This document shows, piece after piece, positions 31,104-61,657 of a DNA stretch of 64,000 nt. Numbering within the stretch: position 1 is the first letter of the stretch; every line of letters starts with the position of its first letter. The translations under genes were made by a program, and so were the position numbers. The DNA comes from a virus: the IMG/VR virus record IMGVR_UViG_3300044716_000883, positions 1 through 64,000 of that record; one strand, given 5' to 3'. The notes below the pieces were generated by a model that worked only from the letters and a program-made list of their open reading frames with translations, did not search any database and was not told the DNA's origin.

Positions 31104-31126
31104 GCAAAATAAAGTCGTACATTTAC
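31104..31126 (+). promoter_or_regulatory. GGCA/TANATTYA promoter copy
   Basis: GGCAAAA overlapping the end of the preceding stop codon, an 8-nt spacer and TACATTTA. The ATG of the next gene follows after an A-rich leader of about 20 nt. Confidence 0.6.
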
Positions 31127-31145
31127 GGTATAAATAAATAAAAAT

Positions 31146-31439
31146 ATGAGTTACGAATTAGCACAAAAATACGCTGACTTTCAAATTCCAAAGGAAATTA
31201 AACAAGCGTACAAATCAGGAGTACAACTAGCTGGATCATTAGGATTTACTAAGATGATGATGTTCGCAAATGAAAATCAAATCACAAACGATGATATTGA
31301 TTATTACATGAACAGAAAACCTCAAAGACAAGAAGACGAGACAGTAGAACAAATGAAAGTACGAGGTAAATTCTCACAAGCATTATATAAGTACAGAGCA
31401 TATTTGTACGATTATTCAGTATACGAAAACCAAAATTAA
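31146..31439 (+). CDS. Hypothetical protein
   Basis: A 97-aa, mainly helical protein with paired charged helices (YADFQIPKEIKQAYKSG and VEQMKVRGKFSQALYKYRAYLY). It has its own promoter of the GGCA class and is separated by 5 nt from the next gene. I recognise no domain. Confidence 0.55.
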   Translation: MSYELAQKYADFQIPKEIKQAYKSGVQLAGSLGFTKMMMFANENQITNDDIDYYMNRKPQRQEDETVEQMKVRGKFSQALYKYRAYLYDYSVYENQN

Positions 31440-31444
31440 TAAAC

Positions 31445-31666
31445 ATGGGACAGTATTTTCAAGTAAAAGTACAATTTTCTGATATCGATGATAAAGGAAA
31501 GGTAAAAAAGGAAAACATTGCATATTTAGTCGACGCGCAGTCAGTAACTGAGGCAGAAGCTAGAGTAGTAAAATTCCTGACAGATGAAGATGAAACTAAC
31601 TTTGAAGTTAAAGCAGCATCTGAATCTAAAATTGCTCAAGTAATTGTTGCTGATTCAGCAGAATAA
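31445..31666 (+). CDS. DUF4494-like protein
   Basis: A 73-aa protein with the pattern YFQVKVQFSDIDDKGKVKKE, AYLVDAQSVTEAEARVVKFL, and a C-terminal strand IAQVIVAD. This matches DUF4494 proteins, small proteins known mainly from Bacteroidota and their phages, which supports the host assignment. The function of the family is unknown. Confidence 0.7.
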   Translation: MGQYFQVKVQFSDIDDKGKVKKENIAYLVDAQSVTEAEARVVKFLTDEDETNFEVKAASESKIAQVIVADSAE

Positions 31667-31672
31667 CCAGCA

Positions 31673-31744
31673 GCTCAGTTCGACTAAGGGTTAGGTCACA
31701 TCCCTTTCACGGATGTAATACGGGTTCGAATCCCGTACTGAGTA
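31673..31744 (+). tRNA. tRNA-Glu (anticodon TTC)
   Basis: Full cloverleaf: acceptor GCTCAGT/ACTGAGT, D arm GACT/GGTC, anticodon stem CATCC/GGATG with loop CTTTCAC, and T arm CGGG-TTCGAAT-CCCG. The CCA end is not encoded. It reads GAA codons, which dominate Glu use in this genome. Confidence 0.93.
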
Positions 31745-31749
31745 CACAC

Positions 31750-31825
31750 TCCAGAATAGCTCAGCAGGTAGAGCAACTGATTTGTAATCAGTAGGTCGCA
31801 AGTTCGATTCTTGTTTCTGGATCCA
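31750..31825 (+). tRNA. tRNA-Thr (anticodon TGT)
   Basis: Acceptor TCCAGAA/TTCTGGA, D arm GCTC/GAGC, anticodon stem ACTGA/TCAGT with loop TTTGTAA, and T arm CAAG-TTCGATT-CTTG. The 3' CCA is encoded (31823-31825). It reads ACA codons. Confidence 0.95.
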
Positions 31826-31929
31826 AGCCGAATCGTAATCGGAAAACCAAGTGCAAAAGCTCAACCACGGCCGTGGAAGCACAGGCTAACGACCTAATAT
31901 GAGCCAGGTATAGGGGTGCTATACCAAAT
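31826..31929 (+). ncRNA. Structured 104-nt spacer between tRNA-Thr and tRNA-Ser; possible small RNA
   Basis: No open frame or tRNA is visible, but several stems are. These are CCGA/TCGG (31828-31842), GTGC/GCAC (31851-31854 with 31879-31882) enclosing the palindrome CCACGGCCGTGG (31865-31876), GGCT/AGCC (31884-31887 with 31902-31905), and a perfect 7-bp hairpin GGTATAG/CTATACC (31907-31925). The density of stems is much greater than in other spacers. It might be a small RNA or only a processing spacer. Confidence 0.4.
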
Positions 31930-32016
31930 GGAAGCTTGCCAGAGTGGTTGAATGGAACGGTCTTGAAAACCGTCATACTGGAAACGGTATCTGGGGTTCG
32001 AATCCCTGAGCTTCCG
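31930..32016 (+). tRNA. tRNA-Ser (anticodon TGA)
   Basis: Class II tRNA of 87 nt. It has acceptor GGAAGCT/AGCTTCC with discriminator G, anticodon stem ACGGT/ACCGT with loop CTTGAAA, a long variable arm (ATACTGGAAACGGTAT) and T arm TGGGG-TTCGAAT-CCCTG. It reads UCA codons. CCA is not fully encoded. Confidence 0.95.
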
Positions 32017-32021
32017 CAAAC

Positions 32022-32092
32022 TGCCCTTTAGTATAACGGTAGTACGACAGTTTTTGGTACTGTTTGTTGAGGTTCGAATCCTTGAGGGGCAA
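32022..32092 (+). tRNA. tRNA-Gln (anticodon TTG)
   Basis: Acceptor TGCCCTT/AGGGGCA (one G-T pair), anticodon stem ACAGT/ACTGT with loop TTTTGGT, and T arm ending GGTTCGAATCC. It lies 5 nt after tRNA-Ser and reads CAA codons. Confidence 0.93.
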
Positions 32093-32123
32093 CATTAGAT
32101 TATTATCTTAAAAATAAAAAATT

Positions 32124-32351
32124 ATGTTTTGGACAATTTACGCAATAAGCGTTATTTATTGCTTTTATCAATTAGTAAAACGCTACAGAGCAACTGACTT
32201 AAGAGGTGGTGGATTAGATTCAGCCCCAGGATTAGATGGAGTTATGGTACTTTTCCTAGCACCAGTATTAGCTGTAGTTGACGTTACTTTAACTTGGATA
32301 AGAATTTATAAAGAAGCTGAAGAAGCAAGACGAAGAAACAATACACTGTAG
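32124..32351 (+). CDS. Small membrane protein within the tRNA cluster
   Basis: A 75-aa protein with two hydrophobic segments (FWTIYAISVIYCFYQLV and GVMVLFLAPVLAVVDVTL) and a basic C-terminal tail (EEARRRNNTL). The TAG stop lies within the 5' acceptor strand of the tRNA-like element that follows. A single protein gene embedded among tRNAs is unusual. Function unknown. Confidence 0.55.
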   Translation: MFWTIYAISVIYCFYQLVKRYRATDLRGGGLDSAPGLDGVMVLFLAPVLAVVDVTLTWIRIYKEAEEARRRNNTL

Positions 32352-32505
32352 GGTGGCGGAATAGAGGTAGCTCCTCGTGGCAGACGTGCCCTCTCGTCTA
32401 GGGGGTGCTGATCAGAGACAGATGTAAGATATGGGTTGACCACAAAGCCGGCTTATTTGTCTTACATTGAATCGCAGCGTGCTGGTTCAACCCCAGCCCC
32501 TACAG
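32347..32505 (+). ncRNA. Oversized tRNA-like RNA (159 nt)
   Basis: The ends are tRNA-like: a 7-bp acceptor TGTAGGG/CCCTACA and a T arm GCTGG-TTCAACC-CCAGC, with a discriminator G. After the acceptor comes TGGCGGAAT, as in tRNA-Leu. Inside are hairpins GAGG/CCTC (32364-32376) and AGACG/CGTCT (32382-32399, 8-nt loop), then a long arm built from GTGCTG/CAGCGT and ATGTAAGA/TCTTACAT (32405-32480). No valid anticodon loop is evident. It could be a tRNA interrupted by insertions, a tRNA with a giant variable arm, or a tRNA-derived small RNA. Confidence 0.55.
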
Positions 32506-32510
32506 CAAAT

Positions 32511-32596
32511 GCCTTGGTGGTGAAATAGGTAGACACGCAGGACTTAAAATCCTGTTCGCAGCAATGCGAGTGCGAGTTCGATTCTCGCCTGAGGCA
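32511..32596 (+). tRNA. tRNA-Leu (anticodon TAA)
   Basis: Class II tRNA, 86 nt. It has acceptor GCCTTGG/CTGAGGC, the leucine-type GTGAAATAGGTAGACAC D arm, anticodon stem CAGGA/TCCTG with loop CTTAAAA, variable arm TTCGCAGCAATGCGAG and T arm TGCGAG-TTCGATT-CTCGC. It reads UUA, the most used Leu codon here. Confidence 0.95.
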
Positions 32597-32611
32597 CAAA
32601 TAATTATATAC

Positions 32612-32944
32612 ATGGCATGTCACTGCTTATACTTGAAAAATTCAGATGAATTTTACTCATTATTAAAGAGTAGAGATTCAGATATGATCATGAAGATGGT
32701 CAAATGTGTACTTAGTGCAGCTAAACGAAATAAAAAAACCATCGATATATTTGATATCACGTTCAAAAATACAGATGGTTTGATTTTTACTATTGATAAA
32801 TCGCAGTATACCGAATTATTAAGCAACTGCCTAAACGATCTAATCGCACTTGAAGAATACGAATTGTGCGCTGAGATCAAGAAATTTATTGATAAGAAAT
32901 CAAAAAGTAAAAAATCAGGGGATGTCCAGGTATTTGATCTATAA
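32612..32944 (+). CDS. Paralog of the UVR-like protein at 29776
   Basis: The ATG at 32612 lies 15 nt after tRNA-Leu; a longer frame starting at 32564 would read through the tRNA and is rejected. The 110-aa product aligns with the 29776 protein over RNKKTIDIFDITF, LIFTIDKSQY and ALEEYELCAEIKKFIDK, then ends in a Lys/Ser-rich tail. The CHCLYL N-terminus is specific to this copy. The two copies flank the RNA cluster. Confidence 0.6.
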   Translation: MACHCLYLKNSDEFYSLLKSRDSDMIMKMVKCVLSAAKRNKKTIDIFDITFKNTDGLIFTIDKSQYTELLSNCLNDLIALEEYELCAEIKKFIDKKSKSKKSGDVQVFDL

Positions 32945-32947
32945 TCT

Positions 32948-33283
32948 GGAGGTAGTACCACACGCGGACAAAGCATGAATGTCCTTAAACCCTTGCGAAA
33001 CAATAACTGTAGAATTATCTACTATGACCTTCGACGACATGATGTCTTTCGTAGGTGCGAACGAGTACGCATTAGCGGCTTAATTAGCGTCGGGTGTAAC
33101 ATCCTAGGAACAGAAGTTACAAGCAGTTTACCCAAACGTTAAATGGGTTGGTGGAACGCTATACTAACCATATGGCCCCAATTCTTTTGGAACAGTAGTA
33201 AGATTAAACTGTTAAACTAAGCGTGTGAGACGTTGGTATTATTGTTCGTTATAGAGACACCGGTTCGACTCCGGTCATCTCCA
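32948..33283 (+). ncRNA. ssrA: Transfer-messenger RNA (tmRNA)
   Basis: About 336 nt. The tRNA-like ends are GGAGGT at the 5' side pairing with ATCTCC at the 3' side, plus T arm ACCGG-TTCGACT-CCGGT. In the middle, TAGGT precedes a resume codon GCG at 33057, giving the tag ANEYALAA and a TAA at 33081-33083; E. coli has UAGUC before GCA and a tag ending YALAA. A strong terminator follows. tmRNA rescues stalled ribosomes and tags the broken product for proteolysis. The third acceptor pair is A-T, whereas tmRNAs normally have the G-U pair read by alanyl-tRNA synthetase. Confidence 0.88.
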
Positions 33284-33290
33284 CAACTTA

Positions 33291-33317: not shown

Positions 33318-33353
33318 CATCATATTTATAGGTAACCATTATAAATTAAAAAG

Positions 33354-42998: not shown

Positions 42999-43021
42999 GG
43001 CAAAATTTTAACGTATATTTA
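42999..43021 (+). promoter_or_regulatory. GGCA/TANATTYA promoter copy
   Basis: GGCAAAA, 8-nt spacer, TATATTTA; drives the small lipoprotein gene at 43057 after a 35-nt leader. Confidence 0.6.
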
Positions 43022-43056: not shown

Positions 43057-43218
43057 ATGAAAAAAGCAACATTAGTATTCGTAGTAGCATTAACATTAGC
43101 TGCTTGCGGAACTGGAAACACTGAGACTGTAGCAACTGATTCAACTGCTGTGTCTGCTGATACTACTGCTGTAGTAGCTGCTGACTCGACGAGTGTTGAT
43201 TCAACTACTACTAAGTAA
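43057..43218 (+). CDS. Small Ser/Thr-rich lipoprotein
   Basis: Fifty-three residues: a signal with lipobox LTLAAC (cysteine at residue 17), then a run of Asp, Ser, Thr, Val and Ala arranged in short repeats (TDSTAV, ADTTAV, ADSTSV). It is like the small disordered lipoproteins common in Bacteroidota. It has its own promoter and terminator, so it may be strongly expressed. Confidence 0.7.
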   Translation: MKKATLVFVVALTLAACGTGNTETVATDSTAVSADTTAVVAADSTSVDSTTTK

Positions 43219-48398: not shown

Positions 48399-48412
48399 TG
48401 GTCGTAGATTTA
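48389..48412 (+). promoter_or_regulatory. GGCA/TANATTYA promoter copy
   Basis: GGCAGAG overlapping the stop of the speD-like gene, 9-nt spacer, TAGATTTA; next ATG at 48430. Confidence 0.6.
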
Positions 48413-48429: not shown

Positions 48430-48636
48430 ATGGCAATACAAACTAGAGACGAAGCACAAGACAAATTCAGTAGAAGAGTAGACAAAACATTATTTAAAAA
48501 GAAAAAACATGTGCCATTGAGCCAAGAGTCATGGGATGACTTGAGTCGTAGAGGTGCATCGTTGGCTGAGCAGGAAGAGTGGATTAAATTGAGACGTAGA
48601 CAAAAAGAACGAGAAGACAACATTAAAAATAGCTAA
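48430..48636 (+). CDS. Small charged hypothetical protein
   Basis: Sixty-eight residues, highly charged and helical (FKKKKHVPLSQESWDDLSRR; WIKLRRRQKEREDN). Follows a GGCA-class promoter. No family recognised. Confidence 0.5.
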   Translation: MAIQTRDEAQDKFSRRVDKTLFKKKKHVPLSQESWDDLSRRGASLAEQEEWIKLRRRQKEREDNIKNS

Positions 48637-48836: not shown

Positions 48837-48860
48837 GGCAGGGTAGATAGTGTAGATTTA
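48837..48860 (+). promoter_or_regulatory. GGCA/TANATTYA promoter copy
   Basis: GGCAGGG, 9-nt spacer, TAGATTTA; ahead of the DUF932 gene. Confidence 0.6.
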
Positions 48861-48889: not shown

Positions 48890-49636
48890 ATGACTTACAG
48901 TATTGAAAGAATCAAGGAATTAGCACCGTCAGTATTTACAACTGAAAAAGCTTCACATTTAACGGATAAATATATCCAAACTCCTACAATTAGAGTAGTA
49001 GAAGATTTAATGAACTTAGGTTGGGAAGTAACTAAAGCCCAAGAGGTTAAAGCTCGTAAGAATAAGGGCTTCCAAAAACACTTGTTAGTGTTTCGTCATC
49101 CTGAAATCACAATTAAGGGTGCAAATGGAGATGATTCATTCCCTCAAATCCTATTAACCAACTCACATGACGGTAAAGCCGCATTTAACTTTAGAGTGGG
49201 TATCTTCAGAATGGTATGTAGTAATGGATTGGTAATTAGCGATGCTGATTTCGGAGTGATGTCTATTAGACATATGAATTATACCTTCGAATCATTGCAA
49301 TCTAAAGTTGCTGAAATGATTAGTAAGTTACCTGGATTAGTTCAGAAAATTAACTTATTCAAATCAACTCAGTTGACTGAAGCTCAAATGAATGAGTTTG
49401 CTACTAAAGCATCTGAATTGAGAACTAAGCAACGTGTTAATATTATGGACATGCTTACTCCAACACGTGCTGAAGATCAAGGTAATGATCTATGGGTTGT
49501 ATTCAATCGTATCCAAGAGAAAGTGTTAGGTGGTTCATACACATATGGTGGCCGTAAGGCTAGATCAGTAAAGAACTTCCAACAGGATATTAAATTAAAC
49601 GAACAATTGTTCGAATTAGCTGAAGCATATCTTTAA
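48890..49636 (+). CDS. DUF932 family phage/plasmid-like protein
   Basis: A 248-aa protein with DUF932 features: SHLTDKYIQTPTIRVVEDLMNLGW, the HLLVFRHPE strand, LTNSHDGKAAFNFRVGIFRMVCSNGLV and the late GGRKARSVKNFQQD. DUF932 proteins are spread by phages and plasmids; their biochemical role is not established. A promoter and an A-rich leader stand upstream, and a hairpin follows. Confidence 0.85.
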   Translation: MTYSIERIKELAPSVFTTEKASHLTDKYIQTPTIRVVEDLMNLGWEVTKAQEVKARKNKGFQKHLLVFRHPEITIKGANGDDSFPQILLTNSHDGKAAFNFRVGIFRMVCSNGLVISDADFGVMSIRHMNYTFESLQSKVAEMISKLPGLVQKINLFKSTQLTEAQMNEFATKASELRTKQRVNIMDMLTPTRAEDQGNDLWVVFNRIQEKVLGGSYTYGGRKARSVKNFQQDIKLNEQLFELAEAYL

Positions 49637-49642: not shown

Positions 49643-49670
49643 AAGGTGGGGGTGTCAAAGCCCTCACCTT
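49643..49670 (+). terminator. Terminator-like hairpin adjoining a promoter box
   Basis: AAGGTG/CACCTT plus inner GGG/CCC pairs. The 3' arm runs directly into TATATTTAT, so the end of one unit and the start of the next share sequence. Confidence 0.65.
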
Positions 49671-49693
49671 ATATTTATCTAAATAAATAAGTT

Positions 49694-49903
49694 ATGAACG
49701 AATCATATCAAGAAGAAATAGATAAACTAATAGCTAAGTTTTCATTAGCAATACTAGCCGAATTAGGACATAAATTACCTATGGACCAAGTCAAATCACT
49801 AGCTAAAGCAATAACAGTGGTTGCTATGGAGGAATTGGATAAGGAAGAATATGAAACCCATTTTTGGATGGAAGCAAGGGAATATTATACAAATCAAAAA
49901 TAA
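49694..49903 (+). CDS. Small helical hypothetical protein
   Basis: Sixty-nine residues, acidic and helical (EEIDKLIAKFSLAILAELG; QVKSLAKAITVVAMEELDKE). It follows a TATATTTAT box. No family recognised. Confidence 0.5.
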   Translation: MNESYQEEIDKLIAKFSLAILAELGHKLPMDQVKSLAKAITVVAMEELDKEEYETHFWMEAREYYTNQK

Positions 49904-50187: not shown

Positions 50188-50482
50188 AAACGAAATACAT
50201 TTAATACATTTAGGATTTGGTTCACATCTAAACGTTCAAACGTCACAACTAGTATCAATTAACGAAACACTAATATTGATTAATGGAGCTAAAGACCCAA
50301 TTGAATTAAACGTTAAAATCGAAGCGGACTTTAACAGTATACCTTCAGAATACCATGAAATATTCTTAAACATGTTAACGTCTAAATATAGTAACAAAGC
50401 ATCATTTGGTGATAATCCGTTCTCAGTATGTCAACCCAAACCGAAACGCAAATGGTACCAGCTTTGGAAGGCGAAGTACTAA
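50174..50482 (+). CDS. Small protein with aromatic C-terminal motif
   Basis: The ATG at 50174 lies inside the end of the preceding gene. The 102-aa product has strands (IHLIHLGFGSHLNVQTS) and ends PKPKRKWYQLWKAKY, like the WWNIW ending at 44511. It may be a second member of that small family. Confidence 0.5.
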   Translation: MNENKNEIHLIHLGFGSHLNVQTSQLVSINETLILINGAKDPIELNVKIEADFNSIPSEYHEIFLNMLTSKYSNKASFGDNPFSVCQPKPKRKWYQLWKAKY

Positions 50483-50493
50483 GCGTACATTGA
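50470..50493 (+). promoter_or_regulatory. GGCA/TANATTYA promoter copy
   Basis: GGCGAAG, 9-nt spacer, TACATTGA; overlaps the end of the previous gene. The SWIM gene ATG is 20 nt downstream. Confidence 0.5.
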
Positions 50494-50512: not shown

Positions 50513-50869
50513 ATGTCAGTTATAGTAGGAGGCGACAAGATAATTGTCCATAGTTACATTCCACCAATTGTGTTTACAGACCCAATTAAATCAGATAAGC
50601 GTTTCGTTATTGCTGATGGTAAATGGACTGAAATACCATTTCATTTAGGCCAAAAACACATCATACATTTCAAGAAAGAGTATAAAAACTCTAAAAACGA
50701 AGCGTTCAAAAACACATTTGAACAGGAAGTAGATGGCAGTAAAGGTAAGAAGTATACAGTTAAAAATGAAGATGATAGATGGAGCTGTACTTGCCCTGCA
50801 TTTGGTTGGTCAGGTAATAGTGGATGTAAACACATTAAACAAGTAAAAGCTGATAACGGATGGAACTAA
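50513..50869 (+). CDS. SWIM zinc-finger protein
   Basis: A 118-aa protein. The C-terminal part holds CxCx10CxH (C92, C94, C105, H107 in WSCTCPAFGWS and GCKHI), the SWIM zinc-binding signature used for DNA or protein contact. The N-terminal half is strand-rich. It overlaps the next gene by 10 nt. Confidence 0.75.
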   Translation: MSVIVGGDKIIVHSYIPPIVFTDPIKSDKRFVIADGKWTEIPFHLGQKHIIHFKKEYKNSKNEAFKNTFEQEVDGSKGKKYTVKNEDDRWSCTCPAFGWSGNSGCKHIKQVKADNGWN

Positions 50870-51297: not shown

Positions 51298-51505
51298 AGA
51301 CATTCTTAGTGAATTAATTACAGTAGCTACCTCAGCATTAAATGAACGTGGTGTACCTGAAAACTTCGATTTGGAAGACTTCATTGACACATTAGAAAGT
51401 TACTACAGTGAACTAGATGAAATAAGTGAATTCGTTTACATTGATGATAAAGACGAATACGATTTCAGTGATGATGGAGATGATTATTATAGAGGGCAAG
51501 ATTAA
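51287..51505 (+). CDS. Small acidic hypothetical protein
   Basis: The ATG at 51287 overlaps the end of the previous gene; 72 aa. It is extremely acidic at the end (DDKDEYDFSDDGDDYY), possibly a DNA mimic, but nothing else supports that. Confidence 0.5.
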   Translation: MEIKDILSELITVATSALNERGVPENFDLEDFIDTLESYYSELDEISEFVYIDDKDEYDFSDDGDDYYRGQD

Positions 51506-51518
51506 GGTTATATATTCA
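51495..51518 (+). promoter_or_regulatory. GGCA/TANATTYA promoter copy
   Basis: GGCAAGA overlapping the previous stop region, 9-nt spacer, TATATTCA, then CGTTATAAAAATTAAAG before the ATG at 51538. Confidence 0.65.
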
Positions 51519-51537: not shown

Positions 51538-51798
51538 ATGTCAAGAAATAATGAACGCGTATTAAGCGATCAAATGATTTCAGATATCAAAGATTCAATT
51601 TTCATTGATTTGGTAAATGAACCTGATTCAGTATATCACTTAGTAGATGATGTTATGAATGCTTATTTAACTAATGATTGGAGTACAATTAAGGAAACCA
51701 TGACTGAAATTATTGAAGCCACAGAAGACGATATCTTACTAACACTGAATATGGAATTAGCAGAAGACGCATTTAATCAAGCAGAGAATGGTAATTAA
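51538..51798 (+). CDS. Small acidic hypothetical protein
   Basis: Eighty-six residues, acidic and helical (SDQMISDIKDSIFIDLVNE; IKETMTEIIEATEDDILLTL). Directly downstream of a GGCA-class promoter. Its end overlaps the next small membrane protein gene by 11 nt. Confidence 0.5.
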   Translation: MSRNNERVLSDQMISDIKDSIFIDLVNEPDSVYHLVDDVMNAYLTNDWSTIKETMTEIIEATEDDILLTLNMELAEDAFNQAENGN

Positions 51799-51970: not shown

Positions 51971-51994
51971 GGCAAAATAAGAGTTGTAGATTTA
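51971..51994 (+). promoter_or_regulatory. GGCA/TANATTYA promoter copy
   Basis: GGCAAAA, 9-nt spacer, TAGATTTA; ATG at 52023 after an A-rich leader. Confidence 0.65.
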
Positions 51995-52022: not shown

Positions 52023-52403
52023 ATGGCTACAAGATCATTGATTGCAAAACAAACAAACGACGGTTACAAAGCGGTTTATTGTCATTGGGATGGTTACCCT
52101 TCACACAATGGAGCTGTATTAGTAGAAAACTACAATACACCAATAATGGCAGATAATTTATTAGCACTTGGAGATTTAAGTTCTTTAGATGTAACACTTC
52201 AAACAACTAAAGCATACCATAGAGATATGGGTCGCGATTATGAAGCAGCTGACTTTGTAAAGACATTCAGTGAGTTAAAGCAATTTGGAAAAGAATGTTG
52301 GGCTGATTACATTTACATATATAATAACGAATTAGAATGGGATTGCTATAATTCACAAGGCGTCCTATTAAATATATTAACCGATAATTTAATAACGGTT
52401 TAA
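52023..52403 (+). CDS. Conserved phage/plasmid hypothetical protein
   Basis: A 126-aa protein starting ATRSLIAKQTNDGYKAVYCHWDGYPSH, an opening shared by a widespread family of small phage and plasmid proteins of unknown function. It is soluble and mixed alpha/beta. A hairpin with terminator character follows. Confidence 0.7.
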   Translation: MATRSLIAKQTNDGYKAVYCHWDGYPSHNGAVLVENYNTPIMADNLLALGDLSSLDVTLQTTKAYHRDMGRDYEAADFVKTFSELKQFGKECWADYIYIYNNELEWDCYNSQGVLLNILTDNLITV

Positions 52404-52476: not shown

Positions 52477-52500
52477 GGCAGAATAATAGTCGTAGATTCA
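52477..52500 (+). promoter_or_regulatory. GGCA/TANATTYA promoter copy
   Basis: GGCAGAA, 9-nt spacer, TAGATTCA; ATG at 52520. Confidence 0.65.
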
Positions 52501-52519: not shown

Positions 52520-52771
52520 ATGCCATATGTAGATCTAGAAAGTGTTAATAAAAACACAATAGTAAGTGATTTAAAATCAGTAATTGGTAAGAGAGTATCA
52601 CAAAACCAATCACCAACACTCGTAGCCAAATTAATTAAAGTTGGTAAAGTAAATTGCGTATTCGAATCAGTAGAATCCGATTTCAAATTATCTACTTTAG
52701 CACCTGGATATAAGGTAGGAGTGCAATATAAAGTACCTACACAATTCGCTTGGAACTCGTTCTTCTACTAG
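52520..52771 (+). CDS. Small hypothetical protein
   Basis: Eighty-three residues, strand-rich after a short helix (LVAKLIKVGKVNCVFESV; APGYKVGVQYKVP), perhaps an OB- or SH3-like fold. The upstream promoter and A-rich leader support expression. Confidence 0.5.
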   Translation: MPYVDLESVNKNTIVSDLKSVIGKRVSQNQSPTLVAKLIKVGKVNCVFESVESDFKLSTLAPGYKVGVQYKVPTQFAWNSFFY

Positions 52772-52775: not shown

Positions 52776-52799
52776 GGCGGGGTTCGAATCGTAGATTTA
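52776..52799 (+). promoter_or_regulatory. GGCA/TANATTYA promoter copy
   Basis: GGCGGGG, 9-nt spacer, TAGATTTA; starts 4 nt after the previous stop. Confidence 0.6.
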
Positions 52800-52822: not shown

Positions 52823-53035
52823 ATGAATACAGTTGAAACAATGAAATTTACAAAACGCGATTTAGTGTATTTAGACACAATTGAACAAGCTTGGGATGGT
52901 AGTGAATTAAAGATTGAAGATGGTGATGTTAGGATATGGCTTAACCCACGTGAAAATAGAGCATACGATGGTGACTATACCCTCGAAACACGAATCAATG
53001 GTAAATGGTCCCAAACCAAATGTTACTTTGAATAG
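52823..53035 (+). CDS. Small hypothetical protein
   Basis: Seventy residues, acidic with a strand-rich second half (DVRIWLNPRENRAYDGDY). An upstream promoter of the GGCA class is 23 nt before the ATG. No family recognised. Confidence 0.5.
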   Translation: MNTVETMKFTKRDLVYLDTIEQAWDGSELKIEDGDVRIWLNPRENRAYDGDYTLETRINGKWSQTKCYFE

Positions 53036-53058
53036 GCAAAACAACAACCGTAGATTTA
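53035..53058 (+). promoter_or_regulatory. GGCA/TANATTYA promoter copy
   Basis: GGCAAAA begins in the stop codon of the previous gene, 9-nt spacer, TAGATTTA. Confidence 0.65.
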
Positions 53059-53085: not shown

Positions 53086-53964
53086 ATGAGTAAACAAATT
53101 ATCCTAGATGCATTAGCAGCACAATTTGCAGTTAAGCAAAATGAATTCACACAATACGATACAACAGTATATCAACCAGCATTAGCCGAACTGAATAAGA
53201 CTGTCAGTGATTGGTTCAGTATGGTATTAGACTTAAATCCATACCGCCTTACATTCAATGGTGATTATGTAGAAATTACTCCATCAGATGAAGGTAAATG
53301 GCATAGCATGATTACTATTAAAAGAAATTCAGGTTGGGGTATTGAAAAAGATACATATTCCATTGATTACAGAAGCGGTTATGGTAAAGCAGAAAATCAA
53401 ACTGACATGTACTACCTAACTACATTAGGTAAAGTAGCACAGAACATTGACTTGATAGTTGAAAATATGAAGTCTGAATGGAAACCAACACATCAATCGA
53501 TTTACAAGCCATATTATGAACTAAGTAATGAATTAGGTAAATTAGAGAGTGAAATAAATGGAGTTAAACAAGATATTCACAATGATAAACGTGAAGTATA
53601 TAAAGCACCAGGATTCGAACATACAGTAACATCTCAGCTTGCTTGTAAAATGAACTACGATACTAATGAATATGAATTAAAAACAGTACCGTATACAATT
53701 AGATTAGAGACAGGAAGTGGTAAGTGGGATTACATGTGGGTTAACTCATATAAAGTAATTGGACCTGCTAAATATAGAAAAATAGCTATACAAGTTAAAC
53801 GTAATGAAGGTGATGAGCGTTGGGAAGATATTGAAGTTAAAGGCGAATTCTTCGATCAATTCATCGCAGAGGTATATAATTGGGAAACTAGATTGAGAGA
53901 GAAGCGTGACGAAGACGAAACTAAACGCTACAATAAGTTCGTTGAGGCAAAGCAAACAGCATAG
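53086..53964 (+). CDS. Hypothetical protein with central coiled coil
   Basis: A 292-aa protein, the largest unidentified gene of this region. The N-terminal part is strand-rich (YRLTFNGDYVEITPSDEGKW). Residues about 135-175 are helical (LSNELGKLESEINGVKQDI). The C-terminal part has a long charged strand and helix (YRKIAIQVKRNEGDERWEDI). Cytosolic by composition. I recognise no family. Confidence 0.55.
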   Translation: MSKQIILDALAAQFAVKQNEFTQYDTTVYQPALAELNKTVSDWFSMVLDLNPYRLTFNGDYVEITPSDEGKWHSMITIKRNSGWGIEKDTYSIDYRSGYGKAENQTDMYYLTTLGKVAQNIDLIVENMKSEWKPTHQSIYKPYYELSNELGKLESEINGVKQDIHNDKREVYKAPGFEHTVTSQLACKMNYDTNEYELKTVPYTIRLETGSGKWDYMWVNSYKVIGPAKYRKIAIQVKRNEGDERWEDIEVKGEFFDQFIAEVYNWETRLREKRDEDETKRYNKFVEAKQTA

Positions 53965-53969
53965 ATTCA
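53946..53969 (+). promoter_or_regulatory. GGCA/TANATTYA promoter copy
   Basis: GGCAAAG lies inside the end of the previous gene, 9-nt spacer, TAGATTCA; ATG at 53989. Confidence 0.6.
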
Positions 53970-53988: not shown

Positions 53989-54198
53989 ATGAGTTTAACA
54001 ATTGAGGATTTAAAGACAATCAGAATCGGATTAAATAAAGTAGCATTCAGCGATAGAAATAATATACTTGAAACAATGAAGAATGTAGATGCAATGTTAG
54101 CAGAGCATAATTTAAAGTTCGAAATGGAAGCTAGACCAAAACGTAAATGGCAGCGTGACACTATTTACGACTATGTATTTAACCCTATAAATAACTAA
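53989..54198 (+). CDS. Small hypothetical protein
   Basis: Sixty-nine residues, helical (TIEDLKTIRIGLNKVAF; NILETMKNVDAMLAEH) then a basic tail (RPKRKWQRD). It is followed one base later by the next gene. Function unknown. Confidence 0.5.
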   Translation: MSLTIEDLKTIRIGLNKVAFSDRNNILETMKNVDAMLAEHNLKFEMEARPKRKWQRDTIYDYVFNPINN

Positions 54199-55190: not shown

Positions 55191-55214
55191 GGCAGAGTAG
55201 TAGTCGTATATTCA
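55191..55214 (+). promoter_or_regulatory. GGCA/TANATTYA promoter copy
   Basis: GGCAGAG directly after the previous stop codon, 9-nt spacer, TATATTCA; ATG at 55236. Confidence 0.65.
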
Positions 55215-55235: not shown

Positions 55236-55442
55236 ATGAAAACAGCAATGCAAGAATTAATTGATGAACTAAAACTTATTGAGGCTTATCCTATGTCACC
55301 TTTAGTATTAAGAATGGCTAATGATTTACTTGAAAAAGAAAAACAGCAGATAATACAAGCAGCATACGAATTTATGGGAACTAACTTCGATTCTAATATG
55401 GGTAGAGCGGAATTATATTATAACGAAAAATATAAAAATTAA
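55236..55442 (+). CDS. Small hypothetical protein
   Basis: Sixty-eight residues, helical (TAMQELIDELKLIEAYPMS; KQQIIQAAYEFMGTNFDS). The pattern of a short helix pair followed by MGRAELYYNEKY is seen in small phage proteins of unknown function. Confidence 0.5.
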   Translation: MKTAMQELIDELKLIEAYPMSPLVLRMANDLLEKEKQQIIQAAYEFMGTNFDSNMGRAELYYNEKYKN

Positions 55443-56632: not shown

Positions 56633-56656
56633 GGCAGAATTAGGGATGTAGATTTA
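56633..56656 (+). promoter_or_regulatory. GGCA/TANATTYA promoter copy
   Basis: GGCAGAA, 9-nt spacer, TAGATTTA; the next ATG (56661) is 4 nt downstream, so a leaderless transcript is possible. Confidence 0.6.
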
Positions 56657-56660: not shown

Positions 56661-57305
56661 ATGAAAATTATAGATAAACCATTAATAGTTGGAGGTGTTC
56701 AGTTGGGTGTTTTTCAAGCATACACCGACATCGAACCAGAACTAATCGCTACGGAATACCGTTCCCGTGTTTTACCCGCTCCTTTTTTTTATGAAAAGCG
56801 GTTGTTTTTTTATTTAGTTAAACGACACGAGCCGGGACAGAATAAGTTTTTTCCTAATGGTGGATTTGAGGTACGCGACGAGAGTGGTGGACTGAGATGT
56901 TATGATTTGGATCAGGTTATTATACATCCAGCCGTAATTAAACATAAGAAGACATTAGACAAAATGCACCGCACCGCGGAGAAAATTGCTAAGCAGAAAG
57001 AACGCGACGCGAAGCGTAGCGCTAAACCGAAACCGGAATCAACAGGGAAACGGGGTAGACCAGCACTAGACCCAGCACTTAAGGCAGCACGCGACGCCGA
57101 GAAAATAGCTAAATCGGAACGTAGTGGTGGTAAACGTGGCCGTCCAAAATCAGATAAAACACCAATCGTTAAGGCTAAAACAGGGGGTAAACGCGGCCGA
57201 CCAAAAGTAAGCGACGCTGTTATTGCGAGTCGTGTTGCAGCGAAAGCAGCGACTCGTGTCCGTACAGGGGGTAAACGTGGACGACCTAAATCAAATCGTA
57301 GGTAG
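56661..57305 (+). CDS. Multi-AT-hook DNA-binding protein
   Basis: A 214-aa protein. Residues 1-100 form a folded, strand-rich domain (PLIVGGVQLGVFQAYTDIEP). After that come four AT-hook cores, each KRGRP: near 130-134, 158-162, 177-181 and 206-210, joined by Lys/Ala/Arg-rich linkers. AT-hooks bind the minor groove of AT-rich DNA, which describes this genome. It could be a nucleoid-type or regulatory protein acting on phage or host DNA. A relative with three hooks lies at 58991. Confidence 0.85.
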   Translation: MKIIDKPLIVGGVQLGVFQAYTDIEPELIATEYRSRVLPAPFFYEKRLFFYLVKRHEPGQNKFFPNGGFEVRDESGGLRCYDLDQVIIHPAVIKHKKTLDKMHRTAEKIAKQKERDAKRSAKPKPESTGKRGRPALDPALKAARDAEKIAKSERSGGKRGRPKSDKTPIVKAKTGGKRGRPKVSDAVIASRVAAKAATRVRTGGKRGRPKSNRR

Positions 57306-57328
57306 GCCAAATTGTGTTCATATATTTG
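57305..57328 (+). promoter_or_regulatory. GGCA/TANATTYA promoter copy
   Basis: GGCCAAA beginning in the previous stop codon, 9-nt spacer, TATATTTG (the exact -7 Bacteroidota hexamer TANNTTTG). Confidence 0.65.
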
Positions 57329-57350: not shown

Positions 57351-57524
57351 ATGCCAAAAGAATTAGACGAAGAACTAACACAACTAAACTACATGGAAAA
57401 GTTAGCTATTATCAATGCTAATGTTAAACATTTGGTTGACTACTACGATGACAACAATATGATGGATATGATTCCTGATTATGTTTGGGGTTACATTCTT
57501 AAAATTGAAAAATATAGTAAATAA
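57351..57524 (+). CDS. Small acidic hypothetical protein
   Basis: Start chosen at the ATG at 57351, after the A-rich leader of the promoter; an upstream in-frame extension would run through the promoter. The 57-aa product is acidic and helical (KELDEELTQLNYMEKLAI). A hairpin follows. Confidence 0.5.
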   Translation: MPKELDEELTQLNYMEKLAIINANVKHLVDYYDDNNMMDMIPDYVWGYILKIEKYSK

Positions 57525-57527: not shown

Positions 57528-57549
57528 GAAGCGGGGCAAAACCCGCTTC
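57528..57549 (+). terminator. Hairpin overlapping a GGCA promoter
   Basis: An 8-bp stem GAAGCGGG/CCCGCTTC whose loop is GCAAAA. The stem and loop contain the first part of the promoter at 57535-57558. Confidence 0.75.
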
Positions 57550-57558
57550 TTATATTTA
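57535..57558 (+). promoter_or_regulatory. GGCA/TANATTYA promoter copy inside a hairpin
   Basis: GGCAAAA lies at the top of the preceding hairpin, 9-nt spacer, TATATTTA; ATG at 57578. Confidence 0.65.
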
Positions 57559-57577: not shown

Positions 57578-57733
57578 ATGTATAGTTTAAAATGTGATTA
57601 TTACGGAGCCGAATTTACCTGCATTGGTGATTTGATTGCTCATATTATGATTTCAGGTATGGATCCTGATTATGAAATTACTAAAGATGGTAAATCGATA
57701 GGTCAAAAAGCCATTGATTATATTTCATTTTAG
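57578..57733 (+). CDS. 51-aa hypothetical protein
   Basis: A 51-aa frame (MYSLKCDYYGAEFTCIGDL, ending KAIDYISF) with the typical ATAAGTATG start context directly after its promoter. Two cysteines near the N-terminus; no recognised fold. Confidence 0.55.
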   Translation: MYSLKCDYYGAEFTCIGDLIAHIMISGMDPDYEITKDGKSIGQKAIDYISF

Positions 57734-57741: not shown

Positions 57742-57765
57742 GGCAGGACCCAATTCATATCTTCA
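57742..57765 (+). promoter_or_regulatory. GGCA/TANATTYA promoter copy
   Basis: GGCAGGA, 9-nt spacer, TATCTTCA; overlaps a short GGGT/ACCC hairpin. ATG at 57785. Confidence 0.6.
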
Positions 57766-57784: not shown

Positions 57785-58003
57785 ATGAAAGAATTAAGTA
57801 AAAGAAGTAAAAAAATTGTAGATAATTGTATTATTAAAATTTATAATAATGAATTAAGTATAGGTGAAGTATATAATAAATGTGTTAAATATTATGGGAA
57901 TAGTGCATTTTGTTATTTTATAGATGAATTAGAAAGATTAAATATGTGTTATATAAGTGAAGGTATATTAGAAGAAAATAATAGATGTGATTGGAAAAAT
58001 TAA
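57785..58003 (+). CDS. Small helical hypothetical protein
   Basis: Seventy-two residues, helical (LSKRSKKIVDNCIIKIYNNE; CYFIDELERLNMCYI), exceptionally AT-rich in codon choice. It ends with a basic/aromatic tail (NRCDWKN). No family recognised. Confidence 0.5.
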   Translation: MKELSKRSKKIVDNCIIKIYNNELSIGEVYNKCVKYYGNSAFCYFIDELERLNMCYISEGILEENNRCDWKN

Positions 58004-58021: not shown

Positions 58022-58045
58022 GGCAAAACACAATTTATATCTTCA
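58022..58045 (+). promoter_or_regulatory. GGCA/TANATTYA promoter copy
   Basis: GGCAAAA, 9-nt spacer, TATCTTCA; ATG at 58065. Confidence 0.65.
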
Positions 58046-58064: not shown

Positions 58065-58289
58065 ATGATAACATTTGAACAATTAAAAGGCATATTATGT
58101 CAGGGCGAAGTAGAAATACAATACGATAATGAAGTACCTGATTCTGTTATTGGTGAAACAGAAAATAAATTTGAAAGGGCAAATACGTTGCTCGACCTAG
58201 TTAACATTTATGAAGATATGGGTTATGAAACACACACTGCCCATGAAGTAATTGTTAATACTATGATGCAATTAGCAACATTAGATTAG
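58065..58289 (+). CDS. Small acidic hypothetical protein
   Basis: Seventy-four residues, acidic (GEVEIQYDNEVPDSVIGE) then helical (LLDLVNIYEDMGYETHTAHE). The stop overlaps the next promoter. Function unknown. Confidence 0.5.
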   Translation: MITFEQLKGILCQGEVEIQYDNEVPDSVIGETENKFERANTLLDLVNIYEDMGYETHTAHEVIVNTMMQLATLD

Positions 58290-58312
58290 GCAGCGTTTCG
58301 TTTATATATTTA
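58289..58312 (+). promoter_or_regulatory. GGCA/TANATTYA promoter copy
   Basis: GGCAGCG starting in the stop codon, 9-nt spacer, TATATTTA; ATG at 58339. Confidence 0.6.
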
Positions 58313-58338: not shown

Positions 58339-58653
58339 ATGAAAGTTACACAAACGTTATTAATGGTTATGGTCGAAGTTCCGGTCCAAGTAGGTGAATT
58401 AAAATGTAAAGCACAAATGCAAGTTTGTAGAACACTTGGCACATTAAATGAGCCCAATGAAGGGGAAGATGAAATTGAATTTGCAGATATAAGTGATATT
58501 ACATATATGGGCATACCAATTGAAGGTTATAATAATTGGAGAAAGTTTAAGCAATTTCATTTGGAAATGGGAATTGATTGGGACAAGGCCCTTGCCCAAA
58601 AAATAAATGAAATGACAAATGATATTATAGAAGAAGTTAATGTAAGTTACTAA
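58339..58653 (+). CDS. Hypothetical protein
   Basis: A 104-aa protein with a strand-rich start (VTQTLLMVMVEVPVQVGE) and a helical C-terminus (NWRKFKQFHLEMGIDWDKAL). Acidic in the middle. No domain recognised. Confidence 0.5.
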   Translation: MKVTQTLLMVMVEVPVQVGELKCKAQMQVCRTLGTLNEPNEGEDEIEFADISDITYMGIPIEGYNNWRKFKQFHLEMGIDWDKALAQKINEMTNDIIEEVNVSY

Positions 58654-58661: not shown

Positions 58662-58683
58662 GAGGCGGGGCAAAACCCGCTTC
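58662..58683 (+). terminator. Hairpin overlapping a GGCA promoter
   Basis: An 8-bp stem GAGGCGGG/CCCGCTTC, loop GCAAAA, the same design as at 57528. Confidence 0.75.
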
Positions 58684-58692
58684 ATACATTTA
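58669..58692 (+). promoter_or_regulatory. GGCA/TANATTYA promoter copy inside a hairpin
   Basis: GGCAAAA in the hairpin loop, 9-nt spacer, TACATTTA; ATG at 58719. Confidence 0.65.
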
Positions 58693-58718: not shown

Positions 58719-58922
58719 ATGAAATTAGAATTAGCGATTACAAAGGAAAGAGTACCTTACTTAGTAGAAGAATTAGGTGAAGATCGTATTGAAGTTAGAG
58801 AATACAATGACAACCAAGATTTAATCATATTTGAAGTGAATGATGGTATGGATGTATTATGTATATTTCATGCTGGGATTAGGTTTGGTAGTGATAGTAT
58901 GAGAAACGCTGTAGTGAGATAA
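58719..58922 (+). CDS. Small hypothetical protein
   Basis: Sixty-seven residues, strand-rich (ELAITKERVPYLVEELGED; LIIFEVNDGMDVLCIFHAG). It is typical of short early-region proteins; unknown. Confidence 0.5.
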   Translation: MKLELAITKERVPYLVEELGEDRIEVREYNDNQDLIIFEVNDGMDVLCIFHAGIRFGSDSMRNAVVR

Positions 58923-58930: not shown

Positions 58931-58954
58931 GGCAGAATTAAGTTCCGATATTTA
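58931..58954 (+). promoter_or_regulatory. GGCA/TANATTYA promoter copy
   Basis: GGCAGAA, 9-nt spacer, GATATTTA; ATG at 58991. Confidence 0.6.
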
Positions 58955-58990: not shown

Positions 58991-59245
58991 ATGTCAAAAA
59001 GTACAACAGTAAAAAACACAGGTAAAAGAGGTCGTCCAACAGTAAGTAATTCAGCTCGTCAAGCGCGTTTAGCAGCAAGAGCGGCTCGCGTAGCAGCGGG
59101 TGGTGAAGTAAAGCGTGGTAGACCCGCTAGTCAAGGTTCAGCACGTCAAGCGAAATTAGCAGCTCAAGCAGCTAGAATCGCAGCTGGTGAAACGATTAAG
59201 CGTGGTCGCCCAGCAAAAGCATTGATCGTTGAATCAGTAGCTTAA
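58991..59245 (+). CDS. Three-AT-hook DNA-binding protein
   Basis: An 84-aa protein made almost only of three AT-hook units: KRGRP at about 12-16, 41-45 and 70-74, exactly 29 residues apart. Each is followed by an Ala/Arg/Gln helix such as SARQARLAARAARVAAG. The regular spacing shows tandem duplication of a 29-residue unit. It is likely a nucleoid-binding or transcription-shaping protein like the larger one at 56661. Confidence 0.85.
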   Translation: MSKSTTVKNTGKRGRPTVSNSARQARLAARAARVAAGGEVKRGRPASQGSARQAKLAAQAARIAAGETIKRGRPAKALIVESVA

Positions 59246-59258: not shown

Positions 59259-59282
59259 GGCGTAGCTCCACCCATATATTTA
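59259..59282 (+). promoter_or_regulatory. GGCA/TANATTYA promoter copy inside a hairpin
   Basis: GGCGTAG, 9-nt spacer, TATATTTA. A GGGTGG/CCACCC hairpin (59253-59273) contains the first element and most of the spacer. Confidence 0.6.
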
Positions 59283-59485: not shown

Positions 59486-59509
59486 GGCAATGTCCCGTTC
59501 ATATATTCA
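59486..59509 (+). promoter_or_regulatory. GGCA/TANATTYA promoter copy
   Basis: GGCAATG right after the previous stop, 9-nt spacer, TATATTCA; ATG at 59529. Confidence 0.6.
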
Positions 59510-59528
59510 CGGTATAAAATTAAATGAT

Positions 59529-59816
59529 ATGAATAAGAAAGAAATTAAGAACATGATTACAAGGACAGTATGTCAGTTCGTTAGTGATTTAGGTTACAGT
59601 GTTGACGATGATGGGTTTCATGGTTCATTAACATTCCAAAAACACGGCTCATCAATTGATGATTCAATCGAATGGAATCGTAGTTACCAAGATGCAATAT
59701 GCCTTAATTGGGCGAGCGATGAAGCTAAAGCCGATTGTGAGGCGATTAACGAGTATATGAAATCAATAATCATATATTGGGAAGCTCAATATACACCGAA
59801 ACGTGCCGTGGCATAG
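59529..59816 (+). CDS. Small hypothetical protein
   Basis: The ATG at 59529 follows the promoter and A-rich leader and gives 95 aa. A helix (KKEIKNMITRTVCQFVSDLG) leads into strands, ending basic. No family recognised. Confidence 0.5.
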   Translation: MNKKEIKNMITRTVCQFVSDLGYSVDDDGFHGSLTFQKHGSSIDDSIEWNRSYQDAICLNWASDEAKADCEAINEYMKSIIIYWEAQYTPKRAVA

Positions 59817-59833
59817 TTCGGTTCGTATATTCA
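59810..59833 (+). promoter_or_regulatory. GGCA/TANATTYA promoter copy
   Basis: GGCATAG includes the previous stop codon, 9-nt spacer, TATATTCA; ATG at 59853. Confidence 0.65.
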
Positions 59834-59852
59834 CGGTATAAAATTAATGAGT

Positions 59853-60095
59853 ATGAAACAAAAGATGATTAAAGCGTACCACATCGAGCATGATGGATGC
59901 TATAGTAACATAGTAGTAATCAACACACATAAAGAACACGTTGATAATTACCACACTACGTTCTTCAAATTAGCAGACGCTAAACGTGAGTTATTGAGTA
60001 GCCTAAAGTTACATATAGATGAATACACATATGCTGCTAAACGTATTAGAGCGATTAATAACGAAACAGTACCTCAACGCGCTACGGCAGAGTAA
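59853..60095 (+). CDS. Small hypothetical protein
   Basis: The start at 59853 fits the AGTATG context; another in-frame ATG is at 59847. An 80-aa, mixed strand/helix protein (KAYHIEHDGCYSNIVVINTH; FFKLADAKRELLSSLKLH). Unknown. Confidence 0.5.
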   Translation: MKQKMIKAYHIEHDGCYSNIVVINTHKEHVDNYHTTFFKLADAKRELLSSLKLHIDEYTYAAKRIRAINNETVPQRATAE

Positions 60096-60109
60096 CAATC
60101 GTATATTCA
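60086..60109 (+). promoter_or_regulatory. GGCA/TANATTYA promoter copy
   Basis: GGCAGAG overlapping the stop region, 9-nt spacer, TATATTCA; ATG at 60132. Confidence 0.65.
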
Positions 60110-60131
60110 CGTCATGATAAAATTAAAACGT

Positions 60132-60332
60132 ATGAAACAAACAGTAAGTAAAACAGGTGCTGCGTTATTAGCAGTATGGGCAGTAGTAATGGTAGCAGTA
60201 ATAGTAATTGGAGCTGGATCAGACGGTCCGATTGATGGCCCTGAACTCATTAACGCATGGACGTTCTACGGGTTCGTATTAGGTTTACCTACAATATCAG
60301 TTGCAATGATGAGATGGGGTGGTCAGAAATAA
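60132..60332 (+). CDS. Small membrane protein
   Basis: The start at 60132 is set by the promoter position; 66 aa. Two hydrophobic segments (about 10-28, GAALLAVWAVVMVAVIVIGA, and 44-60). Likely inner membrane; function unknown. Confidence 0.5.
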   Translation: MKQTVSKTGAALLAVWAVVMVAVIVIGAGSDGPIDGPELINAWTFYGFVLGLPTISVAMMRWGGQK

Positions 60333-60345
60333 ACACATATATTCA
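60322..60345 (+). promoter_or_regulatory. GGCA/TANATTYA promoter copy (variant)
   Basis: GTCAGAA in place of GGCAGAA, 9-nt spacer, TATATTCA; ATG at 60364. Confidence 0.5.
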
Positions 60346-60363
60346 CGTCATAATAATAATGAT

Positions 60364-60594
60364 ATGAAACAAATAACAACACAACCAGTAGTAACATTTC
60401 AAGTAGGTGATCGCGTTCAATTCAACAGATCAATTAACGATCGAGGTATGAGTATGTGGTTAAACACTGAGTACGGTATCATAATTAAAATGAACAAAGT
60501 AACGGCGTTAGTTAAAACACAAACCGCAACGTGGAAAATAGACATAGATGAATTAACTCAATATGTTGATCCATTTAGCGGTTGGGCTGAGTAA
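60364..60594 (+). CDS. Small beta-type hypothetical protein
   Basis: The start at 60364 follows the promoter, giving 76 aa. The sequence VVTFQVGDRVQFNRSINDRG, then GIIIKMNKVTALVKTQTATW has the strand pattern of a small SH3/KOW-like barrel, common in nucleic-acid binding. Unknown. Confidence 0.5.
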   Translation: MKQITTQPVVTFQVGDRVQFNRSINDRGMSMWLNTEYGIIIKMNKVTALVKTQTATWKIDIDELTQYVDPFSGWAE

Positions 60595-60608
60595 CGATCA
60601 TATATTCA
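60585..60608 (+). promoter_or_regulatory. GGCA/TANATTYA promoter copy
   Basis: GGCTGAG overlapping the stop, 9-nt spacer, TATATTCA; ATG at 60631. Confidence 0.6.
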
Positions 60609-60630
60609 CGTCATGATAAAATTAAAACGT

Positions 60631-60825
60631 ATGGAATTAACATTACAAGAGTTAAATGAAGTGTATTACAGCTTAAATGTATTACTAAACGACAAAGATT
60701 CACATTTCGTTAATGTGGATGTAGTAACTAACCTGATAGATAAAATCGGTGATGAGATTGGACGTCTAGCTATGGATGAAGTAAATGAGGAAATAAACGA
60801 ATTAAAATTAACAGGTAAACTATAA
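60631..60825 (+). CDS. Small acidic hypothetical protein
   Basis: The start at 60631 is set by the promoter; 64 aa. Helical and acidic (LTLQELNEVYYSLNVLLND; IGRLAMDEVNEEINELK). The next short gene starts 7 nt after its stop. Confidence 0.5.
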   Translation: MELTLQELNEVYYSLNVLLNDKDSHFVNVDVVTNLIDKIGDEIGRLAMDEVNEEINELKLTGKL

Positions 60826-60832
60826 TTAAAGT

Positions 60833-60988
60833 ATGAACACAAACGAATTAAAAGAACAACTACAACAGGACTTATTAAGTCTATTAGATGGAATGGGTAT
60901 TGAAGATACATTATCACCTAGTGATTATGAAAACCTCAAAAACGAAGTATGTGATATAGTAATTACTAACGTTAATAAATTAAAATAA
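60833..60988 (+). CDS. 51-aa hypothetical protein
   Basis: A 51-aa helical frame (NTNELKEQLQQDLLSLLDG, ending ITNVNKLK) with the AAAGTATG start context. It sits in a chain of short genes. Unknown. Confidence 0.5.
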   Translation: MNTNELKEQLQQDLLSLLDGMGIEDTLSPSDYENLKNEVCDIVITNVNKLK

Positions 60989-60995
60989 CCAGAGT

Positions 60996-61202
60996 ATGAA
61001 CGTAAACGAATTAATGAACATGAATGATATGTACTATGTAGGTAACATATACGATGTTGATGGTGATGGATGGGTATCGAAAGCGGAAGCACAAGCGATA
61101 TTAAATGAGATAGGCATGGGTGATGATAACTCAGGCGGATACGGTGACGAGTCACCAGATGAATACAAGCGCATGATGGCTACCGTGGGAATTAAAATCT
61201 AA
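60996..61202 (+). CDS. Small EF-hand protein
   Basis: A 68-aa protein with one complete EF-hand loop: D20, D22, D24, G25, W26, V27, S28, E31 in DVDGDGWVSKAE, followed by the exit helix AQAILNEIG. It probably binds calcium; a single hand suggests dimerisation or a structural role. The last gene before a long untranslated stretch. Confidence 0.7.
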   Translation: MNVNELMNMNDMYYVGNIYDVDGDGWVSKAEAQAILNEIGMGDDNSGGYGDESPDEYKRMMATVGIKI

Positions 61203-61483
61203 TGGGCATGATGCTCGGGCATACAAAGTTCTGAAGGATCGGGTCGCTAGCGGTTGTTAGCGTCCCGATAGCGGTCTGACGACGGAATGCTCCCATGATA
61301 ATTGCGGTCCATCGACGGGCCGTGGTTGCGCACAAAAAAGCTATGGGGATTTTCAACTCGCACACGATCTCTACGCCCCGACAGTATATACGCATATCCC
61401 CCATATTTATACCCGCATTTTCATTTAACCCATTTTGGAACCACTTGCGAAAACCTCAAAATCTCTTTTAAACAAAATTTTTT
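61203..61483 (+). other. GC-richer untranslated stretch, possible structured RNA
   Basis: About 280 bp without a convincing gene. The first 200 bp are clearly GC-richer than the surroundings and hold a hairpin of CGGG-T-CGCTA/TAGCG-T-CCCG (61240-61267) and further repeats of GGTC and CGACGG. A minus-strand frame here has no start context or family. It could encode a small RNA or a replication or packaging site. Confidence 0.45.
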
Positions 61484-61657
61484 ATGTCGAAAAAGTATAT
61501 ACAGGATTCATTGATGTTAACTAAAGAAGCATTCATCGAAGCGGCGTTACGTCAACAAACCGCGGAAGCCGCGCAATACGGATTAACACTTGATGAATGG
61601 CAACAAGCAATAATGAGTGGATCAGTTGTTCAGGCAAAACCTCCATCGGATATTTAA
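61484..61657 (+). CDS. Small hypothetical protein
   Basis: A 57-aa frame starting MSKKYIQDSLMLTKEAFIE, helical with Ala/Gln/Glu (TAEAAQYGLTLDEWQQ). Its 3' end contains the next gene's promoter. Confidence 0.5.
   Translation: MSKKYIQDSLMLTKEAFIEAALRQQTAEAAQYGLTLDEWQQAIMSGSVVQAKPPSDI
61633..61656 (+). promoter_or_regulatory. GGCA/TANATTYA promoter copy inside a coding end
   Basis: GGCAAAA, 9-nt spacer, GATATTTA, entirely within the end of the previous ORF; ATG at 61676. Confidence 0.6.

Follow-up and report, generated by a model that had tools for sequence, protein, structure and literature searches.

The first 64 kb of the viral record IMGVR_UViG_3300044716_000883 (the window; the record is G000 in the genome comparisons) contains many copies of a two-part motif, in which a GGCARAR box is followed by a short spacer and TANATTYA, often with CG after it, and which by its anatomy is probably a class of pre-late promoters. 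The record is 179,381 bases long, and its final ~87 bases repeat its first ones, so that it looks complete and either circular or circularly permuted. One strand carries nearly all of the genes. The phage is a T4-like myovirus, with genes for a family-B DNA polymerase, clamp loader, sliding clamp, terminase, tail sheath and ribonucleotide reductase, and a DNA-level search against named phage records gave no match. It also encodes a 1103-amino-acid (aa) outer-membrane beta-barrel protein with a carboxypeptidase-regulatory-like domain (record 84382-87693), which shows at most 70% identity to proteins of Bacteroidota metagenome-assembled genomes, several of them named Sediminibacterium or Chitinophaga. 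These matches point to a host among the Bacteroidota, perhaps in the Chitinophagaceae.

The repeated motif is real and strong. When up to two mismatches were allowed, GGCARRR-N9-TANATTYA matched the window 45 times, against 9.4 expected (standard deviation 3.2) and a maximum of 17 in 100 shuffles. A position weight matrix, as proposed in a preliminary description of this DNA, was built and used to scan the full record with spacers of 8-10 allowed. All 44 copies that the scan detected are on the coding strand. When only half of the sites were used for training, the matrix recovered 12 of 12 held-out sites, and hits peaked at a spacer of 9. The spacer was 9 in 36 copies, 8 in seven and 10 in one, and tended to finish in TCG. 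Within 31104-61656 there were 31 of the 44 copies, and 28, or roughly one for each small gene, were located within 48-62 kb. The copies at 48165 and 50648, which lie inside genes, are probably chance matches.

Much of the preliminary description held. The positions 48389, 52776, 53035, 57305, 58022, 60086 and 8859 named there each hold a copy, and start codons do follow just after the motif, with a median of 19 nt separating TANATTYA from the next ATG. The motif had also been said to begin often in the preceding stop codon, and this was seen in six copies, whose box shares its first G with a TAG. The CG described as following most copies proved to be no more than a tendency (C 44%, G 66%). The copy at 8859, regarded as the single outlying one, is accompanied by others at 569, 6256, 28869 and 82542 (the last a record position) and elsewhere.

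Outside the small-gene cluster, all copies in the window being on the + strand, the box precedes queE (615-1454) at 569-592, with an orthologous copy before queE in G021, G003 and G012. The DNA polymerase gene (6283-8859) is preceded at 6256-6278 by a GTCA box with a spacer of 8 together with a TTTG of the -33 type, and the box is found at the polymerase gene also in G004, G003, G021, G012 and G014. The -33 TTTG is likewise combined with a GGCC box at 8859-8882, before 8887-9225 (conserved in G021, G022, G014 and G012), and with a GTCA box at 28869-28892, before 28908-29444 (not conserved in relatives). A -33 element with a GGCA box and a spacer of 8 was found at 31103-31125 before 31146-31439 (conserved in G002, G003 and G023), at 42999-43021 before 43057-43218 and at 44513-44535 before 44540-45340, and a weak copy (ATCAAAG) with a -33 element stands at 45287-45310 before 45330-45950. 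Beyond the window, the gene at record position 82570 is also preceded by a copy.

In the cluster, GGCA boxes are located at 48389-48412 (before 48430-48636), 48837-48860 (before the DUF932 gene 48890-49636, and kept in six of the six relatives having this gene), 51495-51518 (before 51538-51798), 51971-51994 (before 52023-52403), 52477-52500 (before 52520-52771), 53035-53058 (before 53086-53964, and beginning in the G of the upstream TAG), 53946-53969 (before 53989-54198), 55191-55214 (before 55236-55442), 56633-56656 (before 56661-57305), 57535-57558 (before 57578-57733), 57742-57765 (before 57785-58003), 58022-58045 (before 58065-58289), 58289-58312 (before 58339-58653), 58669-58692 (before 58719-58922), 58931-58954 (before 58991-59245), 59486-59509, 59810-59833 (before 59847-60095), 60086-60109 (before 60114-60332) and 61633-61656 (before 61676-61873). 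Variant boxes are GGCG at 50470-50493 (before 50513-50869), 52776-52799 (before 52823-53035) and 59259-59282; GTCA at 49654-49677 (before 49694-49903) and 60322-60345 (before 60364-60594); GGCC at 57305-57328 (before 57351-57524); and GGCT at 60585-60608 (before 60613-60825).

Bacteroidota promoters have the consensus -33 TTTG and -7 TAnnTTTG (PMC7366714). When non-coding elements resembling the -7 sequence were aligned on their TA, GGC showed a peak 16 nt upstream and TTG a second one at 23 nt. The latter is the Bacteroidota -33 TTTG, which had been overlooked in the preliminary description, although it was right that the GGCA box does not occupy the -33 position; the box sits downstream of it, 11-12 nt from the -7 element. 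A -33-like TTG, 21-24 nt upstream of TA, was present in 18 of the 44 copies and was unevenly distributed: 22 of the 28 copies in the 48-62 kb cluster lacked it, against 4 of 16 elsewhere, where the other 12 carried it (p = 0.001). The -33 element accompanied 18 of 24 spacer-8 copies and 51 of 174 spacer-9 copies (p = 4e-5). These counts suggest that the box can either replace the -33 element or accompany it.

The distribution of the motif was then examined in relatives. Because a search with a protein of the small-gene cluster returned near-identical records only, DNA polymerase was used instead, giving 51 related loci. Closer relatives carry the motif in large numbers on their coding strand; G016-G019, G024 and G025 have none, or no more than expected by chance. 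The matrix scan of eight in-clade genomes or fragments detected 227 coding-strand and 6 opposite copies, compared with 2 and 2 in the outgroup G018 and 3 and 2 in the outgroup G025, and GGCARAR was the consensus in every in-clade genome. In the DNA polymerase tree, the box-bearing phages formed one clade. At upstream regions orthologous to those of the box genes of G000, the box was present in 40 of 73 in-clade cases and in none of 15 from the two outgroups, several of which have TTGG-N17-TTATATT promoters instead; presence at homologous positions in relatives, a check suggested beforehand, was thus observed. A strict version of the motif, scanned against 2.9 million viral contigs, gave 22 stretches, all sharing proteins with the box clade. 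Ten candidate-host and other Bacteroidota genomes gave 67 matches at N9 against 89 at the N13 control, and a host promoter class was dismissed as the N9 spacing was not favoured there. A control with the box read backward was set aside for the host genomes, as GGCA and its reverse differ in composition. The earlier proposal of a phage-specific element agrees with this confinement to one phage clade and with the lack of a spacing preference in candidate hosts. A different two-part element, AAGGGG-N16-TTTGTGTAATA, was noticed in G025 (reverse orientation), mostly at 153-180 kb and 0-4.3 kb, with about 16 copies before small genes and one on the opposite strand.

Late genes use a separate element, ATATTTATW, distinct from the GGCA-box class. 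It was found 45 times on the coding strand (for example at window 5523, 47351, 62122 and 63013) and three times on the opposite strand; 30 copies were at most 60 nt from where a gene starts, many of these preceding structural genes, and the strand bias was present in all six large genomes compared, including outgroups. In ten cases, such as window 5523 and 47351 and record 67170, 81764, 157152 and 158728, ATG followed exactly 3 nt after the element, with almost none at 4-11 nt, and in the outgroups this distance peaked at 3-5 nt. The arrangement points to a group of late mRNAs without a leader, which would start at the A of ATG. A sigma-like gene begins at 63562 on the + strand, reaches the end of the window at 64000 and runs on to 64338. 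Its match to Pfam Sigma70_r2 (E 0.024) was below the cut-off, its best fold matches were mostly sigma factors with none significant, and a PDB sequence search gave nothing useful. This gene is likely the late sigma factor, the gp55 counterpart of the phage family.

For the box promoters, genes having ATG at 4 nt after TATATTYA place the predicted transcription start at about the fifth nucleotide after TANATTYA, where the consensus is A (71%). This is nearer than the 6-8 nt expected previously. With such a start, TANATTYA would span about -12 to -5, and the box would extend from about -28 to -22.

We consider it rather probable that a clade of T4-like phages of Bacteroidota uses these repeats as its pre-late promoters, early and/or middle, and that the box is read by a phage-encoded factor acting with the host polymerase. 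TANATTYA, a host-type -7 element, would be recognized by host RNA polymerase that carries the primary sigma factor; the clade-specific GGCARAR box 8-9 nt upstream would be bound by a trans-acting factor that stabilizes the polymerase. In the small-gene cluster the box would make up for the absent -33 TTTG, and at replication and metabolic genes it would assist a -33 element still in place. As the box is common to many unrelated promoters, is absent from the same genes in outgroups and is combined with a host-like -7 element, a clade-specific trans-acting reader is the simplest explanation. Its existence, its phage origin and the early or middle timing are proposed from the DNA sequence. A phage-encoded RNA polymerase was dismissed, with no sign of one among the largest proteins scanned.

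The closest functional parallel would be the MotA system of T4, a parallel of position and not a claim of family membership. In T4, 12 +/- 1 bp separate the MotA box from the -10 element (PMC2988021), and here GGCA is separated from TA by 12 nt in the copies with a spacer of 9 and by 11 nt in those with a spacer of 8. In both systems a phage-specific box stands upstream of a host-type element at pre-late genes of a T4-like phage. The lack of an upstream element is shared in part, by the cluster copies without -33, and does not extend to the copies elsewhere, most of which have one. The sequences differ, the MotA box being (a/t)(a/t)(a/t)TGCTTtA and the present one GGCARAR, and the -7 element is of the Bacteroidota type. 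The likeness to MotA proposed in the preliminary description thus stands for position. The corresponding search for a MotA-like activator gene was negative: neither MotA nor AsiA, nor a second sigma factor, was among the families listed (top 25 per Pfam/PHROG scan) for 78 mostly small proteins, a scan that strongly diverged homologues or weaker, unlisted hits might have escaped.

This negative result weighs against a phage-encoded reader, as do three further points. The best helix-turn-helix (HTH) candidate varies in its recognition helix among relatives while the box is constant, and the clade-wide co-occurrence amounts to a single gain in the tree. Moreover, few non-late promoters are without the box, which makes the first expression of a phage-made activator problematic; the activator might be carried in the virion to serve at the start of infection. 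More than 40 near-identical promoters on non-late genes, with an extra GGCA box that related viruses lack, suggest that the clade gained its own switch of the host polymerase. It is possible, though we lean slightly against it, that a non-MotA factor was gained at the base of the clade and that more than 40 unrelated promoters took up its box, as a redirection resembling that by MotA and independent of it. If so, the AAGGGG-N16 box of G025 would mean that this family has repeatedly swapped its pre-late promoter systems. The redirection of the unusual Bacteroidota RNA polymerase by phages is little studied, and our literature search turned up no description of an element of this kind. With the box, spacing and predicted start defined for more than 40 promoters and with outgroups lacking the box, an activator is directly testable, and the box clade and its outgroups provide a natural experiment in the joint change of dozens of promoters.

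A specific form of this proposal names as reader, or co-regulator, a 78-aa XRE-like HTH protein encoded at 208-444 on the + strand, which we regard as unlikely but worth retaining. It is the only recognizable HTH protein among the small proteins scanned (Pfam HTH_3, E 0.005, below the curated cut-off), and its AlphaFold2 (AF2) model, with a mean predicted local distance difference test (pLDDT) score of 86, has an XRE-like fold. Its distribution matches that of the box, as 16 box-bearing relatives have it and none of the box-free records does; in box-free G015, queC and folE are adjacent without the HTH gene. The box-bearing G004 and G023 gave no HTH match, both being fragments that start downstream of its position. 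On the other hand, this co-occurrence is confounded by the single gain, the gene sits in a queuosine-type gene block, and the recognition helix reads SVSHLSN, ERMIYYV or TTRFVNY according to sub-clade while the box stays GGCARAR. It is on account of this helix variation that the protein is kept only as a rival candidate. Further small proteins specific to the clade are encoded at 29776, 31146, 31445 and 43271.

An equally improbable explanation requires no phage activator: the box would be an intrinsic element of strong promoters that the host RNA polymerase itself contacts, and the clade's change of element would reflect a change of host. Such an element would serve from the start of infection, as the scarcity of box-free non-late promoters demands, and the box and -33 element co-occurred above expectation (45 of 131 versus 63 of 374). 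T4 early promoters also bear extra consensus of unknown role (PMC2988021). They resemble the present promoters in being many, near-identical and strong, in standing before nearly every small variable gene and in conserving bases outside the core elements, but have an excellent -35 element, unlike the comparable cluster here without -33 and with a different box. Likeness to promoters of the Bacteroidota primary sigma factor is similarly incomplete: TANATTYA fits the -7 element and TTTG stands at the proper distance in 18 of 44 copies, but the extra GGCARAR lies between the two elements, the last -7 base is mostly A and not G, and -33 is missing from most cluster copies. An intrinsic element is disfavoured by the indifferent N9 spacing in candidate host genomes, by the position of the box between the usual contacts of sigma regions 4 and 2, and by outgroup phages that have the same -33/-7 layout without the box, although these outgroups may have different hosts.

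Recruitment of a host regulator or an alternative sigma factor, for example of the extracytoplasmic function (ECF) type, appears still less probable. Bacteroidota are rich in ECF sigma factors (PMC7366714) and host factors are available from the start of infection, but the element did not form a recognizable class in the ten Bacteroidota genomes and the -7 part resembles that of the primary sigma factor. A sigma-54 promoter (GG at -24 and GC at -12 with ten bases between) was rejected, as the matrix lacks GC at positions 12-13 (G 27%, C 9%).

That the repeat is an RNA, terminator or hairpin element, including an N4-type hairpin promoter, and not a duplex promoter box is very improbable, because only ~14% of copies, against 3% in shuffles, have the box enclosed by a strong GC hairpin, most copies and every one in G023 lack such a hairpin, an N4-type promoter would require one at every site, and the constant distance to the -7 element and ATG suits a promoter. 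Hairpins enclosing the box include GAAGCGGG-GCAAAA-CCCGCTTC before TTATATTTA, in the copy at 57535, 10-bp hairpins at 49654 and 59259, and one at 58669. In the outgroups, a hairpin resembling a terminator, with T's and then the -7 element after it, often has the -33 TTGG within its stem, as in GGCTTGGTTTTCCAAGCC-TTTTTT-ATTATATTAT. Terminator-like hairpins joined to promoters were noted in G018 and G025 (G025 89018, 97402 and 115028) and also at window 57535 and 58669. Terminators and promoters thus seem to be fused in this phage family, the hairpin not being a defining feature.

Several other features were observed. In four relatives the DNA polymerase gene is interrupted at one shared position (residue about 563-567) by ~0.6-1 kb that cannot be read through (L050 4699-5741, L051 4279-5186, L059 4693-5383 and L063 about 4648-5287), for which Rfam gave no intron match. 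The queC, queD and queE homologues and a gene used as folE (window 1-2195 and record 176833-179381) suggest 7-deazaguanine chemistry, possibly for DNA modification. Three glycosyltransferase-like genes (3272-4990 and 15620-18377) lie close to the replication genes, as does a row of Hsp20-like, GroES-like and GroEL-like chaperone genes (10048-12475). Five tRNA genes are located within 31673-33284 together with a phage-encoded tmRNA (32918-33284), the predicted tag of which is ANEYALAA.

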